DNA from: Allomuricauda sp.
GTDB lineage: Bacteria > Bacteroidota > Bacteroidia > Flavobacteriales > Flavobacteriaceae
DNA length: 35,813 nt
NCBI RefSeq assembly: GCF_028282265.1
Contig: NZ_JANQIH010000165.1
Span: 1-35,813, forward strand
Direction: 5' to 3'
The notes beneath the pieces were generated by a model that did no database searches, had not been told where the DNA came from, and saw nothing but the letters and a program-made list of their open reading frames with translations. Shown here piece by piece: positions 26,056 to 35,406 of this stretch (position 1 is its first letter; each line of letters opens with the position of its first letter). The translations under genes were made by a program, and so were the position numbers.

Positions 26056-27219
26056 TTAGCTTTTGTTCTTTAGAACAGACTTTACGGTCCGGAAACCAAG
26101 ATGCTCTTGAGAGGAGTCCAATGTGTTCCCCATTCGGGCTGAAACACGATAGCTGGCACAATAGTTTTCATTGCAAAGAAATGACCCTCCCTTAATTACT
26201 TTTTCCTTAACATATGGATTATTAGGGTTATGGGAATCTTTGGCACCTTTTGGATTAATGACATAATTCTTTGTTTCTGCGATTTTCCTGTAATAGGAAA
26301 CATTGTACCAATCTTGGGTCCACTCCCAAACGTTTCCGACCATGTCATACAATCCATAACCATTGGATGGGTAGGAGGCTACGGGTGCCTTGTTTGAAAA
26401 TCCATCCTTCGCATTGTTCTTTATCGGAAAAGTGCCTGTCCAAGTATTTGTAAATCGGAACAAATCGGTCTTATCATTGCCCCACGGAAATCTGGAATCC
26501 TTGGTTCCTCCACGTGCCGCATATTCCCATTCTGCTTCTGTAGGAAGTCTAGAGCCCGTCCAATTACAATACGCCAAGGCATCTTCATAGGCAATATGAA
26601 CCACGGGATGATCCGCTTTGCCAATCAAATCACTATCAGGACCTAATGGTTGTTTCCAATTTGCTCTAATTTTCCATTGCCACCACTGCGTAAAATCGCT
26701 GAGATTTTGTACATCATGTTGTGGGGTTTTAAAAATCAAGGAGCCAGGTTGAAGAATTGAATCAGGAGGTTTTGGAGTGTCGGGAGGCAATTGCACTTTC
26801 ATTTGTACCCAATCAATTTCCCTTTCTGCCACCGTAACATACCCTGTTGCTTGCACAAACTTTTCAAATTGGGCATTGGTAACTTCGGTACTATCCATGA
26901 AAAAACCATCAACCCAGACCGTGTGGTTGGGTTTTTCGTGTGACATAGCCAAGGAGTCCGAATTAACAGCTCCCATGGTGAAGGAACCTCCAGGAATCCA
27001 AACCATTCCCTCAGGAGTTTTGACATCTTTTGGTTTTTCAACCAGAACTTCAATATTGCTTTCTGTTGATTGGGAAGTTTGTGCATCTGGCTTACCCTTT
27101 TGACTCTTTTCGATACAATAGCTCAAGGTCAAAACTAGGAAGACCCAAATGAAGAATCTTGAGACCCTCGTCCAATAAAGGATTCTCGATGGATTCAAAA
27201 AAACACGTTTTAAGTACAT
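26056..27219 (-). CDS. formylglycine-generating enzyme family protein, exported lipoprotein-like
   Basis: FGE-sulfatase domain: GMVWIPGGSFTMG, RLPTEAEWEYAARGG, FPWGND, GLYDMVGNVWEWTQDWY, VIKGGSFLCNENYCASYRVSARMGNTLDSSQEHLGFR (CxxxxC kept). N-terminal TM/lipobox LTLSYC. Confidence 0.92.
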   Translation of the reverse strand: MYLKRVFLNPSRILYWTRVSRFFIWVFLVLTLSYCIEKSQKGKPDAQTSQSTESNIEVLVEKPKDVKTPEGMVWIPGGSFTMGAVNSDSLAMSHEKPNHTVWVDGFFMDSTEVTNAQFEKFVQATGYVTVAEREIDWVQMKVQLPPDTPKPPDSILQPGSLIFKTPQHDVQNLSDFTQWWQWKIRANWKQPLGPDSDLIGKADHPVVHIAYEDALAYCNWTGSRLPTEAEWEYAARGGTKDSRFPWGNDKTDLFRFTNTWTGTFPIKNNAKDGFSNKAPVASYPSNGYGLYDMVGNVWEWTQDWYNVSYYRKIAETKNYVINPKGAKDSHNPNNPYVKEKVIKGGSFLCNENYCASYRVSARMGNTLDSSQEHLGFRTVKSVLKNKS

Positions 27220-28604
27220 TATTCTTTTTTGCCTTTGAGATATTCAAAATGACTGTTGTCCTTTCCGGTGGTAACGATTAAAGATTCTGGTAAGGGCCCT
27301 AGTTGTTGATAAGCCTGTTCCATTTTTGAAAACAATTCCCTCGTAAAGGATTTTTTTTCCAGATAGAGATTTTTGGTTTCACCGGGGTCTTTTCTTAAAT
27401 CGAACAAAAGCGTATCATGGGCGGCAACGGCTTTTTGCCATGGACTTCCCCTAGTCCCCCTATACGGCTTTTTAATTTTCCACATGCCTTTACGGAATCC
27501 CTGGAGTCGACTTCCATCTAAAAAAAGAAAAGCATCCCCTTCACGTTTCCCATGTTGAAACAGGACCTTTGAGATATCCGAACCATCAATTGGTCTATCA
27601 TCGGGAAGACTAATGCCTAAAAGATGGGCGAATGTGGGAAACCAATCCATTTGCGTGGCCAAACCGCTATATACAGTTCTAGGCTTTATCCTTTTCTTCC
27701 ACATGGCCACCGTTGGAACACGCATTCCCCCTTCAAAGGTAAACTGCTTTCCTTCCTTGAGTATTCCAGCGCTACCTCCGTGCTCTTCCATTACCAACCA
27801 AGGCCCATTATCACTTGAAAAAATAACCAAGGTATTCTCAAGAAGTCCAAATGATTCCAGTTTGGTCAAGATACTTCCCACGCTCCAGTCCAATTCCTCA
27901 ATAACATCCCCGTACAACCCTCTTTGAGACTTATTTCTAAAGTCTTTGGATGCATGAATCGGAACATGGGGCATATTATGGGCTACATATAAAAAGAAAG
28001 GGCTGTTCTTGTTTTTCTCTATAAAATTCAACGCCTCCCTGGTATAGGTCTTGGTAGTTTCCCTTTGATCTACGTAATAATCTACCACTTTATTACCTCT
28101 CATATAGACCACACTAGACATGTCATTGCTATAGGGAATCCCAAAATAATAGTCGAAACCTTGTTGTAACGGTAAAAACTTTTCTCGATGGCCCAAGTGC
28201 CATTTGCCGATAATCCCGGTGCTATAATCTTTTTCTTTTAGCAGTTCGGCCATTGTGATCTCACTTTGGGGCATACCCGTAAAACTCTCTGGAAAGAAAA
28301 CATTGTTTATACCCATTCGTTGAGGATACCTTCCGGTCAACAATGCTGCCCTTGAAGGGCTACAAACCGAGGAAGCGGAATAGAAGTCGGTAAACTTGAT
28401 TCCTTCTTTGGCTAGGCGGTCAATGTTGGGTGTTTTGATATCGGTGGCCCCAAAACAACCCAAATCACCATATCCCAAATCGTCTGCGAAAATGAAAACT
28501 ATATTGGGAAACGAATCTTTCCGCTGTGCCGATAGATTTACTTGACAGAACACCACAATTAAAATGCTCAAAACGATTTTGTCAATTCTAGGAAATGAAG
28601 TCAT
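27219..28604 (-). CDS. sulfatase (arylsulfatase family S1), Cys-type
   Basis: PNIVFIFADDLGYGDLGCFGATDIKTPNIDRLAKEGIKFTDFYSASSVCSPSRAALLTGRYPQRMG, GIIGKWHLG, VIFSSDNG; signal peptide. Confidence 0.96.
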   Translation of the reverse strand: MTSFPRIDKIVLSILIVVFCQVNLSAQRKDSFPNIVFIFADDLGYGDLGCFGATDIKTPNIDRLAKEGIKFTDFYSASSVCSPSRAALLTGRYPQRMGINNVFFPESFTGMPQSEITMAELLKEKDYSTGIIGKWHLGHREKFLPLQQGFDYYFGIPYSNDMSSVVYMRGNKVVDYYVDQRETTKTYTREALNFIEKNKNSPFFLYVAHNMPHVPIHASKDFRNKSQRGLYGDVIEELDWSVGSILTKLESFGLLENTLVIFSSDNGPWLVMEEHGGSAGILKEGKQFTFEGGMRVPTVAMWKKRIKPRTVYSGLATQMDWFPTFAHLLGISLPDDRPIDGSDISKVLFQHGKREGDAFLFLDGSRLQGFRKGMWKIKKPYRGTRGSPWQKAVAAHDTLLFDLRKDPGETKNLYLEKKSFTRELFSKMEQAYQQLGPLPESLIVTTGKDNSHFEYLKGKKE

Positions 28605-28614
28605 GATTACAAAT

Positions 28615-30357
28615 TCAATTGTTGTCAGATCTCACTAAATCGCTGGGTTTGTATCCAATGCGATGGGCCCGGGCCACGAGTAACTTATTAGATTTGATTT
28701 CTAAGGGCGAAGTGTATACTTGCCAAAAATCTTGCGGTTCTTCTCCTGGAGAAAGCCATTGATAACCGATTGAGGCACCTAGGGTCGGAGATTCAAGCTG
28801 AAATGAGTTGCCCTTTTTGGTAAAGCTTGGAGCAACTGTTTTCGGTCGGGCCCAATAGTTGCCCACTTTTTCAATGTGTTCCGCTTCGGGTATAAGGCCT
28901 TTATCTTTGGTATCGCTTATCCAACCGTCAAGCGCACTCCTTAGTTCCTGAAGTTTGCTGGCAAGGAGTGGGTCATTAGCCAAATTGTGTAGCTCGTCGG
29001 GGTCGTTCCAAGTATCAAAAAGCTCCTCAGGGTCCTTTTTTTGTCTAAACCAGAGAAGCTGCTTCGGGTCAAGGCTGTCATTTTTGCGTAAACGTAATAA
29101 TTCCTGCATAATGTCCATTTCCTCCCTAAACTTTATGGGAAGGTAATAAGACTGGTTGGGCAGAAAGTTTCGAATGTATTTATAGCGCATATCCCTAACT
29201 GCCCTAATCCTATCATGTTGACGGTCAAAACGGTCTGCCGCGGCGTAGATATATTTTCTTGAAGACTTATCTTGGTATTGACCCATCCAGGCTCTGCCAT
29301 CCATATATTCCGGATTGGGAAGCCCTGCTAATGATAACAATGTGGGCTTAAAGTCAACAAAACTTAAGAGTTGATTATCGCTTTGGCCTGCCAACTGTCG
29401 ATTTGGAAAGCGAATGATCATGGGAACCTTAATTCCGGAATCATAGATGGTGCGTTTTGACCTGGGGAGAGGTCCGCCGTGATCGGTGTACCAAAAGACA
29501 ATGGTTTTTTCCAAGAGACCTTCATCCTCCAATTCGTTTAAGAGTACTCCCATTTGATGGTCCATTTCCTTGATGTTGGAATACATTCTACGAATATCTT
29601 TTTGGGCAAGAGACGTTTTGGGCCAATACGGTTTAATGGGAACATCCAAAAAGTTGTCCACCCAAAGAGAATCATTCGTCTTGGTCCATATTCTGGATTC
29701 ATGAGTCACCATTAAGTTGAAGATGGCGAAGAACGGTTGGTTGTTGGCACGATTTTTCCAATGCGCCTCCCAACTACTTTCATCCCATGCCGTCAATTCA
29801 CACCTGAATTGATAATCTTCTTTGCGATTGTTGGTACAGTAATAACCGGCGCGTCGGAGATAATCGCTGTGCATATGCACTCCTGCTGGAGGTTTTGCCT
29901 CGTATACCGGATTGTACTTTTCATGATGATTTAACAGTGCTTCATCCTTAGTCTTAAAACTGAACCATGGCCCAGTACGCATGTGCATGGCCCCAATGCG
30001 TGTTGGATACATGCCTGTGGCTATGGCGGCGCGGCTTGGTGCACAGACACCGGCAGGGCTATATACGTTGGTATAGGTAACCCCTTCTTTCGCCAATCTG
30101 CTAAGGTTAGGAGTTGCCACGGTGGAGTCTCCATACATGGGTAAAAAGGGGCTTAAATCCTCTGCAACGATCCAAACAATATTGGGCTGTGCAGGAAGAT
30201 TCAAACTTGAATAATCAACAGGTTGGTTTGTCTTCTGTTGCGCTTCTGCATGAAGGGAGAGGAGCACATATAACAAAGTAGTCAACGGTTTTAGAATGTC
30301 ATTCCGCAAATAGTATTTTGCTCCGTTTTGATATGCCGTTTTCATTAAAAGCTTCAA
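28615..30357 (-). CDS. sulfatase (heparan N-sulfatase-like, S1), Cys-type, with C-terminal CHB_HEX/Fn3-like domain
   Basis: PNIVWIVAEDLSPFLPMYGDSTVATPNLSRLAKEGVTYTNVYSPAGVCAPSRAAIATGMYPTRIG, VFWYTDHGGPLPRSKRTIYDSGIKVPMIIRFP. C-terminal GASIGYQWLSPGEEPQDFWQVYTSPLEIKSNKLLVARAHRIGYKPSDLV. Confidence 0.94.
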   Translation of the reverse strand: MKLLMKTAYQNGAKYYLRNDILKPLTTLLYVLLSLHAEAQQKTNQPVDYSSLNLPAQPNIVWIVAEDLSPFLPMYGDSTVATPNLSRLAKEGVTYTNVYSPAGVCAPSRAAIATGMYPTRIGAMHMRTGPWFSFKTKDEALLNHHEKYNPVYEAKPPAGVHMHSDYLRRAGYYCTNNRKEDYQFRCELTAWDESSWEAHWKNRANNQPFFAIFNLMVTHESRIWTKTNDSLWVDNFLDVPIKPYWPKTSLAQKDIRRMYSNIKEMDHQMGVLLNELEDEGLLEKTIVFWYTDHGGPLPRSKRTIYDSGIKVPMIIRFPNRQLAGQSDNQLLSFVDFKPTLLSLAGLPNPEYMDGRAWMGQYQDKSSRKYIYAAADRFDRQHDRIRAVRDMRYKYIRNFLPNQSYYLPIKFREEMDIMQELLRLRKNDSLDPKQLLWFRQKKDPEELFDTWNDPDELHNLANDPLLASKLQELRSALDGWISDTKDKGLIPEAEHIEKVGNYWARPKTVAPSFTKKGNSFQLESPTLGASIGYQWLSPGEEPQDFWQVYTSPLEIKSNKLLVARAHRIGYKPSDLVRSDNN

Positions 30358-32122
30358 CTTGAAAATAATACTTTTGTTCTATGTTAAGTGCACGTAGCTC
30401 ATAGTTGGGCGAATCGTATATATGGGCTGAGAGATTTAGTTTTTCTGGATGGATTCCCCAGTAAATACCATAGCCTGTAGCAGCCTTTACAGCATCCCAT
30501 GTGAGATCGGCGTTTCTTTTATCTTGCTGTCGTGCAACCTCAAAATTCTTAGGGCTTCGAGGTGGCCTTCCCCTTCCCTTTCCAAAAACTCTTAATTCTG
30601 AGATAGCGAGATACTCGTTGGTACAATATACATGTTCATATTTGATATACCGAGCAATTTCAGGACTTTTCAATTCAATATAGGCGTGGGGCATATCGCG
30701 CTCATTTCTGGAGTAATCTGCTATGGTTTTCCAGCTTTTTCCATCAAGGGAGGATTTGATTCTGAACTGCTGTCGTAAAGTGTCGGGTCGTCCAAAAATA
30801 GTACTCTTATAATCCTGAAAGTTAATCTGAACCGCTCTTACTTCACTGGTATTTTCTAAATCGATTTCCACATAGATGGAATCGTTGTTCGTTTGGGAAA
30901 CCCAATACGACCGAATCTCTTCGTCATTGATTCTTTTGATTCCAAAATCAGTGATTTGCTGCTGCATATAACCTTGGTCACTTTCATCGACTACATTTGG
31001 GGAGCCTTCCACTAGTGGCGAATTGGTCTTTACAGGTTTGTGATAGGACAGCAGCATCCATCCTGTGAAGCGGTTTTTATGATTGTCCACCTCGGTATCC
31101 GGTAAGTAGTGCGGATAGTCACCATAGGCCGTATTTACATACATTTGACCATTATCGGGTTCAAAACCTGCAGGATACATTCCAAGTCTCCGCTCAAACT
31201 TATAATTTACCGAAATGGCCATCGTGGCAAAATGCCAATAGTTCCCATGGTTATCCTTTACAGTACTTCCATGGCCGGAGCCTTTCAAGAAACCACCAGG
31301 TTTATAGGAAATGGGATTGTAAGGAGCATACTCGAAGGGTCCAAGCGGGTTTTTACTTGTATAAACACCATCCGCATACACGTTCCACTGTGTTCCCGGG
31401 GCACCATATTCCAAATAATAAGTATCGTTGTGTTTCATCATCCACGGGCCTTCTATAAAAGGTTTTAAATCTGAGCGATGATCCTGGCCAAAGCGTTCCC
31501 AGCCATGCTTTTCTGGTTGAAGGTTAAAAAAGTCCGTTTGCTCTCCCATTGGGATGTAAAAATTGTTGTCATCCAATTCTACGCCTCTAATGGGCCACTT
31601 GTTTGAGGATTCTTCAAATAGGTAAACCTTACCGTCATCATCCACAAAAAGATTGGGATCTTGTACGCCTCCAGGTACATTGATTACTGCAAAATTGGTT
31701 TTCCAATCTCCCAGTTCAGGACTATCAGTTTCTATTACGGCGCCACGACCCGAAGGGTCTCCCATGAGTATGATCTTGTCATCCTTTACTGCTGCAGCTG
31801 GGGCATTGCTGCCGTTAAAGTACCAACTCTGTGGTCTTATAAAGGTCCAATTGCTCATATCGTCCGAACTCCAATAACCATGCGAACGGGTAACGAACAT
31901 ATAGTACTTGCCCTTAAAATTTACAACCGCGGGGTCAGCACCAGAGCGATAGGACACGTTGTTCTTAGCTCTATAATGTGACATGTATGAATAATCAATA
32001 TCAATGGGATTGCAGTACGTACGGTATTTTTTTATTGGCTTTTCATCTTGGGAAAATGTATTGAAAACCGTCAATAAAAAAACACAAAGTGTTGTTGAAA
32101 TTACAAAAGAACTTTTTATCAA
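30299..32122 (-). CDS. GH43-like glycoside hydrolase with discoidin (F5/8C) and fibronectin type III-like domains
   Basis: Candidate catalytic positions in SGADPAVVNFKGKYYMF, VQDPNLFVDDDGKVYLFEE and FIEGPWMMKHNDTYYLEYG; discoidin-like RQQFRIKSSLDGKSWKTIADYSRNERDMPHAYIELKSPEIARYIKYEHVYC...ISELRVFG; Fn3-like C-terminus; signal peptide. Confidence 0.85.
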   Translation of the reverse strand: MIKSSFVISTTLCVFLLTVFNTFSQDEKPIKKYRTYCNPIDIDYSYMSHYRAKNNVSYRSGADPAVVNFKGKYYMFVTRSHGYWSSDDMSNWTFIRPQSWYFNGSNAPAAAVKDDKIILMGDPSGRGAVIETDSPELGDWKTNFAVINVPGGVQDPNLFVDDDGKVYLFEESSNKWPIRGVELDDNNFYIPMGEQTDFFNLQPEKHGWERFGQDHRSDLKPFIEGPWMMKHNDTYYLEYGAPGTQWNVYADGVYTSKNPLGPFEYAPYNPISYKPGGFLKGSGHGSTVKDNHGNYWHFATMAISVNYKFERRLGMYPAGFEPDNGQMYVNTAYGDYPHYLPDTEVDNHKNRFTGWMLLSYHKPVKTNSPLVEGSPNVVDESDQGYMQQQITDFGIKRINDEEIRSYWVSQTNNDSIYVEIDLENTSEVRAVQINFQDYKSTIFGRPDTLRQQFRIKSSLDGKSWKTIADYSRNERDMPHAYIELKSPEIARYIKYEHVYCTNEYLAISELRVFGKGRGRPPRSPKNFEVARQQDKRNADLTWDAVKAATGYGIYWGIHPEKLNLSAHIYDSPNYELRALNIEQKYYFQVEAFNENGISKRSKILFAE

Positions 32123-32189
32123 ATCGAGAGTTTTGAAGTTTAGGTCAATATCAAGATAGAAAATATGGATTAGCGAAAAAGGGGGTCAA

Positions 32190-32207
32190 ATACATATTAA
32201 ATACATC
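32190..32207 (-). promoter_or_regulatory. candidate operator copy A: GATGTAT-TTAA-TATGTAT
   Basis: Direct repeat with 11-bp period on the minus strand; 67 bp separate it from the GH43-like start codon (32122). Confidence 0.55.
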
Positions 32208-32279
32208 ACTCAAAAAGCATTGAAGCAAAAAGGGTTGTATCGTGCTTTTTATGAATGCTTTGTTATGATTCACAATACT

Positions 32280-32297
32280 GATGTAGTAATGATGTAG
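32280..32297 (+). promoter_or_regulatory. candidate operator copy B: GATGTAG-TAAT-GATGTAG
   Basis: Perfect 7-bp direct repeat, 11-bp period, 116 bp before the regulator start codon (32414). Confidence 0.55.
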
Positions 32298-32413
32298 AAA
32301 AACCTGCTTTGCAGGTGTTGATGAACTATCTTTTGAGTTTTTCAATACCTAGTTTTGTATATTGATTTAAGGTTAACCTAAGGTTTTCTAAAACTTAAGC
32401 AATATTTGTTTAG

Positions 32414-35173
32414 ATGACCAAGCGTATAAAAACAACAATCCTGTTTGTTCTGTTCCAAGTAATGGTTTCAGCACAAAATCTTTTGCCACCGGTCTATAAC
32501 TATTCGTTGTTGGATTATAACGGTGCTGGTAAAAATTGGGGTTTAACAACCAACAAAGAAGGGGAGTTGTTTGTTGCGAATAATAAGGGAATGCTTCATT
32601 TCAACGGGGAGGAATGGAACTTGTACAAGTTGCCCAACAACACGATTATTCGTTCCATCCTCTCACAAGGAGAAAGAGTGTATACAGGTTCTTATGAAGA
32701 GTTCGGGTACTGGCAAAAAAATAAGGAAAACATATTTGAGTACTATTCCTTGACCCATCTTATACGAGACCATACCTTCACAAGTGAAGAGTTTTGGGAA
32801 ATTCTACCCATAGGAGAGGCCATCTTTTTTCGTTCCTTCTCTTCGATTTATGTCTACGAAAAGAATCAAATAAAAGTAATTGACCCGCCTCAAGTTGTTT
32901 CCGATTTCATTGTATATCAGGGAAGATTGATTGTGTCAACAGGAAGTGAAGGCCTTTTTGAGTTGAAGAACGACGTGTTGGAACCTTTGGGAAATCAAGA
33001 ATTGTTAAGGAACAAAACCTTGACCGATATGGTAGTGGTCAATGGAGAATTATTGATAGGATCCAAGTTGGACGGCTGTTTCATTTTCGATGGTAATAAA
33101 ATAGAACCTTGGCAAAATGACCTTAACACGGAACTCAAGTCCCATCAATTGAATAAACTACTCAATTTGACCAATGGGAAACTAGCCTTTGGCACCATAA
33201 AGAACGGCGTTTATCTGTATGATTCCCAAACCGGAACTTCACAGATTTTAAATAAGAAAACGGGGTTGGGAAACAATACGGTACTCTCCATGCTCCAATA
33301 TGAGGACCAACTTTGGTTGGGTCTTGACAACGGAATGGCCCGGGTAAAACTCAATAACTCCATTACCTACTATACCGATTATTCAGGCGCTCTGGGAATG
33401 GTATATGACATGGCACTGCACGATGGAAAGATTTACTTAGGTAGTAATACAGGTATATTCTACTTTGATTCCGATGAATTGAGATTCGTCAACGGCTCAC
33501 AGGGTCATGTGTGGGATTTGGAAATCATTGATGATGATTTGGTTTGTGGCCATAATACCGGAACGTATAAGGTTGAACAGAATGAATTCCAACGTCTTTC
33601 CCCATTTGCGGGAGGATATGAAATCATAAGAATCCCTGAGCGGAAGAATACATATATGCAAGGGCTATATACGGGACTTGCAATGTATGATAAAGAAGCT
33701 GATAACGAGTGGGAGGTAAGCAAAGTAACTGGAATAGGTTTTCCCATAAAACAATTATGCTTTGAAAGTCCTCACGTCCTTTGGGCAGCACACCCTTACA
33801 AGGGTTTTTATCGTATACATCTGAATGAGGATTATTCTCAAGTCTCCAAGATCGATGAGTTTAATGGGAAAAGTGTTCCGAGCAACTACAACGTAAAGAT
33901 TTACAAGATTAAAAATCAAATTGTGTTTTGCAGTCAGGGCAGCTGGTACAAATACGATGCAATTCTTGGAGAGATAATCCCATTCTTGGAATTTGAGAGG
34001 TTCAACAACCAAGAGTTATTGAGCTTCGAAGATGAACATTTTTGGTTTGTTGATGGTGAGAAAAATAAACACGTTGTTAGGACCAACTTAAAGACCGATA
34101 GTTTGGTGATTGCCGATTTGCCACTTCGTAGACGTTTGGTGCCCGACGCCCAAAGAATGATTAAGGTAAACGATACCGTCTCGTTCATAACCCTTAGCGA
34201 TGGTTTTGCTAAGGTAAATGTAGCCCAACTGCAACGGCGATTGGACAGTTTTACATTGCCTGTTCCAAAATTGACCTTTTTAAAGGATCGGAGTGATTCA
34301 TACGTTGCAGATGAGATGGGCTCGCAACGTATTTCGTTTAAGAAATCGAGAATCATAACCATTGGATTTGCCACCCCAAAGTCGATTCAACCCCGTTATC
34401 ATTATAAACTGTCCGGAGCAGAGAATCATAATGGATATGTGGAGGAGGGATTGGTTACTTTTCAAAACCTTTCTCATGGGGATTACAGATTTGAAGTATC
34501 TGCCGTCGGTATAGACAATAAAACATCGGAGTCAAGTAGTCTTGATTTTAAAATAGCTCCTCCATGGTTTTTGTCAAACCTGAGTGTTGCCCTTTATTTC
34601 CTTTTGGTTATTGTTTCCATTATCCTGGTTAGAAGATATAACCGTCTAAAACTCAAAAGAAAGCAAAGAGAACTGGAGGAACAGATGCAAAAGGAACAAG
34701 ACAGGAGAATTGCCCAGTTGGAACGGGAAGAATTGGCGAAAAAAGTGAAGCTTAAACAAAATGAACTGGCGAGTACCGCACTGAATATTGCCAGAAAGAA
34801 TGAAATGATTTTGGAATTGAAAAACATGTTGGTGCTCAACAAAGAAAAGTTCCCCAATTCTCAGCGATATCGTTCCTTTATAAGAAAACTAGATAACTCG
34901 GTAAAGGATACCGAAGATTGGAAACGGTTTGAAGTCAGTTTTAAGGAATTGCATGAGGATTTTTTTGAACGTCTTTTAATGGAATATCCAGAACTCACTC
35001 CAAAAGACCTCAAACTCTGCGCCTATCTTAAAATGAACCTATCCACCAAGGAAATTGCCCCTCTCATGGGAATTACAATAAGGGGAGTGGAAATCCATCG
35101 GTATAGGCTACGCAAAAAATTGAGATTGGAAAGCACAAAGAACCTCTCCAACTTTCTGATTACCTTCTCATAA
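32414..35173 (+). CDS. membrane-spanning one-component regulator: beta-propeller sensor, Y_Y_Y domain, TM, coiled coil, LuxR/GerE-type HTH
   Basis: Signal peptide, propeller-like repeats (NNTVLSMLQYEDQLWLGLDNGMARV), triple-Tyr-like domain (HYKLSGAENHNGYVEEGLVTFQNLSHGDYRFEVSAVG), TM (NLSVALYFLLVIVSIILV), coiled coil, HTH (LTPKDLKLCAYLKMNLSTKEIAPLMGITIRGVEIHRYRLRKKL). No histidine kinase. Confidence 0.9.
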   Translation: MTKRIKTTILFVLFQVMVSAQNLLPPVYNYSLLDYNGAGKNWGLTTNKEGELFVANNKGMLHFNGEEWNLYKLPNNTIIRSILSQGERVYTGSYEEFGYWQKNKENIFEYYSLTHLIRDHTFTSEEFWEILPIGEAIFFRSFSSIYVYEKNQIKVIDPPQVVSDFIVYQGRLIVSTGSEGLFELKNDVLEPLGNQELLRNKTLTDMVVVNGELLIGSKLDGCFIFDGNKIEPWQNDLNTELKSHQLNKLLNLTNGKLAFGTIKNGVYLYDSQTGTSQILNKKTGLGNNTVLSMLQYEDQLWLGLDNGMARVKLNNSITYYTDYSGALGMVYDMALHDGKIYLGSNTGIFYFDSDELRFVNGSQGHVWDLEIIDDDLVCGHNTGTYKVEQNEFQRLSPFAGGYEIIRIPERKNTYMQGLYTGLAMYDKEADNEWEVSKVTGIGFPIKQLCFESPHVLWAAHPYKGFYRIHLNEDYSQVSKIDEFNGKSVPSNYNVKIYKIKNQIVFCSQGSWYKYDAILGEIIPFLEFERFNNQELLSFEDEHFWFVDGEKNKHVVRTNLKTDSLVIADLPLRRRLVPDAQRMIKVNDTVSFITLSDGFAKVNVAQLQRRLDSFTLPVPKLTFLKDRSDSYVADEMGSQRISFKKSRIITIGFATPKSIQPRYHYKLSGAENHNGYVEEGLVTFQNLSHGDYRFEVSAVGIDNKTSESSSLDFKIAPPWFLSNLSVALYFLLVIVSIILVRRYNRLKLKRKQRELEEQMQKEQDRRIAQLEREELAKKVKLKQNELASTALNIARKNEMILELKNMLVLNKEKFPNSQRYRSFIRKLDNSVKDTEDWKRFEVSFKELHEDFFERLLMEYPELTPKDLKLCAYLKMNLSTKEIAPLMGITIRGVEIHRYRLRKKLRLESTKNLSNFLITFS

Positions 35174-35216
35174 TGTGAAAATCGGTTCTTTACGATGTGT
35201 TCTATTCCGTTTTACA

Positions 35217-35234
35217 CTACATCAAAGTTACATC
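35217..35234 (-). promoter_or_regulatory. candidate operator copy C: GATGTAA-CTTT-GATGTAG
   Basis: Direct repeat with 11-bp period, minus-strand orientation, between the regulator stop and susC. Confidence 0.5.
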
Positions 35235-35319
35235 ATTATGTTAATTATTTATTAGCAAGTTTTTTGTTCAACTACTGCAAAAGCCTTGTTTTCGTGCCTT
35301 GTTGATTCCAAAAAAAGGT

Positions 35320-35337
35320 GATGTAGTTTTTATGTAG
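35320..35337 (+). promoter_or_regulatory. candidate operator copy D: GATGTAG-TTTT-TATGTAG
   Basis: Direct repeat with 11-bp period; 69 bp before the SusC-like start codon (35407). Confidence 0.55.
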
Positions 35338-35406
35338 GCTACTACACCGATTTCAGATATGCTCTTTATTAAATTAGCAATAAACTAACTCCTTTGCTAA
35401 ACAATC

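Follow-up and report, generated by a model that had tools for sequence, protein, structure and literature searches.

The window, which is the whole stretch of 35,813 nucleotides that was analysed, is one whole contig of a 3.87-Mb Allomuricauda genome in 312 contigs. It contains an enzyme operon on the minus strand, a regulator gene and the beginning of a susC gene (Table 1). The GH43-like gene has TTG as its start codon instead of ATG, and the open reading frames of the apparent enzyme operon overlap or abut. The last gene of this operon, which is SUMF1/FGE-like (26056-27219), has its top score to GldK-type lipoproteins, below the cut-off, and its product is possibly a partner of the sulfatases and not a formylglycine enzyme. 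In relatives of the locus, susC is followed by susD and then by a gene for a GH144-like protein, of which the best named PDB match is the endo-beta-1,2-glucanase 5gzh (E=1.1e-175); in some relatives a LamG-type lipoprotein also comes after susC/susD.

Table 1. Features of the locus, in window coordinates.
Feature	Position	Strand	Sequence or basis
Two sulfatases and FGE/SUMF1-like protein, rest of enzyme operon	26056..30357	-	Pfam
GH43-like enzyme, first gene of enzyme operon	30299..32122	-	Pfam GH43, E=1.9e-26
-7 promoter element, GH43 operon	32151..32158	-	TATCTTGA, 31 nt from box A
Box A, D-type, promoter-proximal, GH43-sulfatase operon	32190..32207	-	GATGTATTTAATATGTAT, exact match
Box B, C-type, distal partner of A, 90 bp apart	32280..32297	+	GATGTAGTAATGATGTAG, exact match
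Candidate -7 box, regulator gene	32350..32357	+	TAGTTTTG, 52 nt after box B
Regulator, 919 aa	32414..35173	+	Pfam Y_Y_Y and GerE
Box C, distal partner of D, 103 bp apart	35217..35234	-	GATGTAACTTTGATGTAG, exact match
Box D, promoter-proximal, susC	35320..35337	+	GATGTAGTTTTTATGTAG, exact match
-7 promoter element, susC	35370..35377	+	TAAATTAG, 32 nt past box D
susC, cut by contig end	35407..35811	+	OMP_RagA_SusC domain

The regulator appears to consist of a signal peptide, a propeller-like periplasmic sensor, a Y_Y_Y domain, one membrane helix, a coiled coil and a C-terminal HTH, with domain borders that were partly read off the sequence. The sensor part gives a partial, weak match to the HTCS sensor structure 3v9f, and for Pfam GerE the score is 22.8 bits, just below the curated cut-off of 23.5 (E=7e-5). 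AlphaFold modelling of the C-terminal 176 residues (mean pLDDT 87.6) predicts the tetrahelical NarL/LuxR-type HTH fold for the C-terminal domain, and the modelled HTH matches the DNA-binding domains of VraR, LiaR, DosR and NarL (Foldseek, TM by target 0.72-0.77); the Foldseek E-values exceed 0.01, an effect of the long coiled coil in the query. A Pfam scan of the regulator revealed Y_Y_Y and HTH only, with no histidine kinase domain, no AraC HTH and no N-terminal receiver or autoinducer domain, of which one or the other is usual, though not obligatory, in NarL/LuxR proteins. The protein thus appears to be a one-component membrane sensor, and we place only its DNA-binding domain in the NarL/LuxR group.

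A sequence-only reading of this DNA had reported four copies of KATGTAD-N4-KATGTAD, here called boxes A to D, in the intergenic regions flanking the regulator gene, and no further copy in the window. When the window was searched again, all four were recovered as exact matches with the reported positions, strands and 4-nt spacers. The hexamer GATGTA or TATGTA recurs every 11 bp, and a direct hexamer-N5-hexamer geometry (GATGTA-N5-KATGTA) fits all four boxes and those of orthologues. The distances given from box A to the GH43 gene (67 nt) and from box D to susC (69 nt) are also correct, and box C lies 43 nt past the stop codon of the regulator. Exact matches in the window are confined to boxes A to D; allowing two mismatches adds only three, for a total of 7 versus 5.3 +/- 2.1 in shuffles. 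These three are chance matches, and the zero-mismatch copies are the signal. The whole genome contains five exact matches, four of them at this locus, and a reversed control pattern likewise has five. At 1-5 matches per 3.87 Mb, about 1e-4 to 7e-4 matches would be expected in the two intergenic regions (approximately 524 bp), where four are found. The same four copies served to define the motif, so that conservation provides the independent test, and it is strong.

Conservation and promoter register

Box C on the minus strand and box D on the plus strand are present, 100-105 bp apart, in the regulator–susC gap of nearly all orthologues (50-86% identity), the pair being kept down to 50% identity and in more than 20 genera of Flavobacteriaceae. 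The regulator and susC are in tandem in all loci inspected, once these are oriented. Among 41 non-redundant loci, the C–D distance is 100-103 bp. In this set, the half-site columns of D, which was located by its half-sites and is missing from none of the loci, are invariant and those of C nearly so (at or near 2 bits); the flanking columns have 0.17-0.4 bits. In a few orthologues the C box is degenerate. Besides C and D, the conserved intergenic elements of the 41 loci comprise the -7 region and a T-rich tract. The T preceding D (TGATGTA) is also invariant in these loci, and the conserved tract TGTTAAATTTTT, located 4-15 nt 3' of box C on the plus strand (35239-35252 in the window), reaches 1.1-1.8 bits at many columns.

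Start-site mapping in F. psychrophilum has given a Bacteroidota -7 consensus, TAnnTTTG, at positions -12 to -5 (PMC9723704), which would place box D at about -62 to -45 from the expected transcription start. A -7 element of the form TAnnTT(x)G is located 31-33 nt after box D in 55 of 55 orthologues, at exactly 32 nt in 47, and this register is fixed while the start codon lies anywhere from 63 to 89 nt from D among the same orthologues. On the other side of the regulator, TATCTTGA is found 31 nt from box A in the window and in two further genomes (G005 and G022), and a sister clade with GACGTA half-sites (36-39% identity) likewise has its -7 register at 31 nt. Conservation is lacking in the columns that separate box D from the -7 element. 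A -7 element at a fixed place after D and A is a likeness to Bacteroidota sigma-A promoters (PMC9723704, PMC7366714), but no -33 element is evident here, which fits an activator-dependent promoter.

A composite of box and -7 element (GATGTA-N6-ATGTA, 32-34 nt, TAnnTT) was searched in 73 genomes of the genus and gave 60 matches, whereas the reversed control gave 4. The genomes with the composite are exactly the 53 of the 73 that have an orthologue; none of the 20 without one contains it, and its only two matches in the window's genome are A and D. Judged by coordinates, a single one of the 60 matches (G008:C29) lies off the regulator locus. The co-occurrence of box and regulator is in part a reflection of shared synteny. 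Across the genus, the single matches outside the composite that were inspected, for instance GATGTATTTTTGATGTAT, lie within open reading frames except for one intergenic match in G004; with nearly all of them inside open reading frames, no extra regulon member was found. The intergenic one (GATGTATAAATTATGTAA, G004:C1:1025080, L060) stands alone in a genome that lacks an orthologue and is probably due to chance. The plasmid records searched contained no match. The genome-wide scan and the comparison of orthologous PULs that the sequence-only reading had proposed have both come out in its favour, as the motif is rare, not frequent at random positions, and is kept in orthologous loci.

Box pairs and half-site specificity

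Separate matrices for proximal (D) and distal (C) boxes were trained on other species and typed 98 of 100 boxes correctly in leave-one-out. With these, boxes A and D are of the D-type (22.1 versus 6.1 bits and 28.3 versus 18.3 bits, respectively) and box B is of the C-type (31.2 versus 17.6 bits). For box C of the window the two types are not separated (15.0 versus 16.7 bits), and its distal class rests on position and synteny. The four boxes thus form two putative outward-facing modules, with C (distal) and D (proximal) directed to susC, and B (distal) and A (proximal) directed to the GH43–sulfatase operon. As distal partners some 90 and 100 bp upstream, B and C may play no part in the control of the regulator gene. 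The C+D module is general and ancestral, and the A+B module occurs only where a GH43 gene is divergent. The A–B distance of the window, 90 bp, is 89-93 bp in G022 and in Croceivirga-type loci; in G441 it is 110 bp and the B-like box is degenerate.

In one genome (G065, locus L052), an insertion of about 1.2 kb with an open reading frame of 181 aa separates the regulator from susC, and despite this insertion a perfect C remains with D, at 101 bp. Because C stays with D, the pair is a unit that belongs to its promoter and is independent of the regulator gene. The inserted open reading frame is preceded by another pair, degenerate and with 104 bp between its boxes, which is followed by TATCTTTT; with its -7 box, it looks as if the operator module had been copied to recruit a new gene. 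At locus L019 (G008), three tandem half-sites GATGTATTGATGATGTATTTATGATGTAT are found upstream of the regulator at 11-bp steps, with the nearest box 33 nt before TAGTTTTG, an arrangement that may reflect autoregulation in that species.

The half-sites read GACGTA in one sister clade (support 100/98) and GATGTA elsewhere. Regulators of the GACGTA loci have a threonine in the recognition helix after the invariant glutamate, where GATGTA regulators have isoleucine, valine or leucine: 12 loci combine GACGTA with threonine and 2 more are mixed, 58 combine GATGTA with Ile/Val/Leu, and none combines threonine with a pure GATGTA box. In an alignment to NarL-type helices, the switch residue corresponds to Val189 of NarL, a base-contacting residue. 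According to the tree, the switch is a single evolutionary event. Independent origins of GACGTA were considered and rejected, as the tree gives one clade and the GAC labels of L083 and L101 are mixed half-site pairs with tied scores. The second half-site of D keeps ATGTA or GTGTA in the GACGTA clade, so that not every half-site follows the switch.

In paralogues of about 30% identity, with SVEIK in the helix, the regulator gene is followed by TAGGTAATGTTGAGGTAA and, about 140 bp further on, by a related box. One of these paralogues (32%; L150, G000:C157) is in the window's genome, where it precedes another susC and has TAGGTAATGTTGAGGTAA behind its stop codon. The paired layout therefore seems to reach beyond the orthologues, to these distant paralogues. 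In another family of the class (L174-L183), C reads GAGGTAATGATGTAG and D reads GATGTATTAATGTAGAG, with hexamers at an 8-bp offset, possibly indicating another head-to-tail binding mode. A family-wide cis code can be proposed tentatively, at less than even odds: membrane-tethered Y_Y_Y-LuxR regulators of Bacteroidota would bind and bridge two unlike, mutually inverted direct-repeat boxes about 100 bp apart (about 140 bp in other branches), with the proximal box in a strict -7 register and a half-site predictable from the helix (Ile/Val/Leu for GATGTA, Thr for GACGTA and SVEIK for an AGGTA-type half-site).

Proposed operators, alternatives and relation to known systems

We interpret the boxes as operators that would work in proximal/distal pairs and serve the membrane-spanning one-component regulator whose gene lies between them; we put the probability of this reading at about 0.8. 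That the neighbouring LuxR-type sensor coordinates the enzyme and SusC operons had already been suggested in the sequence-only reading, and the suggestion gains strong support from the rarity, conservation and -7 register of the sites; these, the pairing and the specificity switch are all read directly from the DNA and protein sequences. The 3' end of the proximal box (D or A) is 31-33 nt before the -7 element, and a regulator bound there could touch RNA polymerase, presumably as an activator and not as a repressor. The distal box (C or B), which is slightly different in sequence, inverted and about 100 bp further upstream (90 bp for A/B), would add cooperativity or bridging. Upon binding of its oligosaccharide, the predicted ligand, by the periplasmic sensor, the cytoplasmic HTHs would occupy both boxes, probably with bridging or looping of the DNA, and susC/susD and the GH43–sulfatase operon would be switched on together. 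Most likely, two HTH domains sit head to tail on each box, in the manner of ComA on TTGCGG-N5-TTGCGG (PMC4797271).

It is unlikely that the four boxes are equivalent operators in two divergent pairs, with B driving the regulator gene (autoregulation) and C also acting at the regulator end. B is indeed oriented towards the regulator and has TATCTTTTG 29 nt after it, and in G008 and G024, which have similar candidate regulator -7 boxes (TAGTTTTG/TACTTTTG), a box is located 33 nt before the TAnTTTTG box of the regulator. However, in most orthologues the region upstream of the regulator is devoid of a box, and no -7 box is conserved at the right distance from B: G022 has lost TATCTTTTG, and in L009, L010 and L012 the -7-like sequence following B is missing. 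Furthermore, B is typed by its sequence as a distal box, C points into the 3' end of the regulator with no -7 box, and in G065 C goes with susC and not with the regulator. Of the two divergent pairs described in the earlier reading, the orientations stand, but the symmetric divergent promoters do not, A and D being proximal and B and C another, distal type of box.

The regulator is linked to the boxes by sequence comparison, and they might belong to another transcription factor sharing the PUL, for example a global carbon regulator. This is improbable given a single off-locus match of box plus promoter in 73 genomes, none in the regulator-less ones, half-sites that change together with the recognition helix of this regulator, and boxes that accompany it across genera. 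An inverted pair such as C/D (or A/B) could also form an RNA stem, as a terminator or attenuator, instead of protein sites: the C and D half-sites are reverse-complementary, and a read-through transcript could pair them. A stem is very improbable, and for C–D it was ruled against by the unpaired spacer positions (0%, 17% and 34% at three of them); D is upstream of the susC -7 box and hence outside the susC transcript, a single box without a partner occurs ahead of a -7 box in L072, and a stem has no need of an 11-bp direct repeat within each arm. That one promoter segment was duplicated, so that the similarity reflects recent ancestry and not function, would account for the same motif at a similar distance from both start codons, but is barely credible. 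It was ruled against by the flanks of A and D, which have no similarity beyond the 18 bp, and down to 50% protein identity the half-sites persist although the flanks have diverged.

The operators of PUL regulators, as which we read the boxes, are a known kind of site; what is new is their arrangement. The sequence-only reading had regarded a direct repeat as unusual for a LuxR/GerE-type HTH, which is less odd than stated. ComA of Bacillus subtilis, with an HTH of the NarL/LuxR type, binds as a dimer to a non-palindromic 6-5-6 direct repeat of 11-bp period (PMC4797271), and boxes A to D have the same hexamer-5 nt-hexamer geometry and period. However, ComA is a cytoplasmic response regulator and the regulator described here is a membrane sensor. 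ComA also uses a neighbouring inverted repeat, whereas here two direct-repeat boxes are mutually inverted about 100 bp apart, and an inverted hexamer repeat of the ComA kind (spacer of about 4 nt) is not among the conserved intergenic elements of the 41 loci. For SusR-like and HTCS regulators of Bacteroides, direct-repeat sites with long-range pairing near susC-type genes have been predicted, 67 or 77 bp apart for SusR (PMC3878776). These are also PUL regulators with periplasmic sensors and paired direct-repeat sites, but their DNA-binding domains are different, the SusR boxes are in tandem on the same strand and not inverted at 100-105 bp, and the kinase, receiver and AraC domains of HTCS are absent from the regulator here. 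Laminarin PULs of Muricauda/Flagellimonas, from the same genus group, are headed by a gene annotated as LuxR, with no binding sites described (PMC13188888); relatives of the present locus carry the GH144-like endo-beta-1,2-glucanase. A literature search covering papers available without subscription found no published binding site for Y_Y_Y–LuxR PUL regulators.

LuxR-type sensors head many marine PULs, and an operator gives a testable map of the genes belonging to each sensor. At this locus, a conserved, promoter-registered operator links the GH43–sulfatase operon with the SusC system. The paired inverted boxes raise the question of whether a membrane-bound activator bridges about 100 bp of DNA, and the correspondence of GATGTA and GACGTA with isoleucine and threonine is a natural specificity switch with which recognition can be tested. 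If the family-wide code were true, the targets of a very large, unstudied class of regulators would be readable from sequence.
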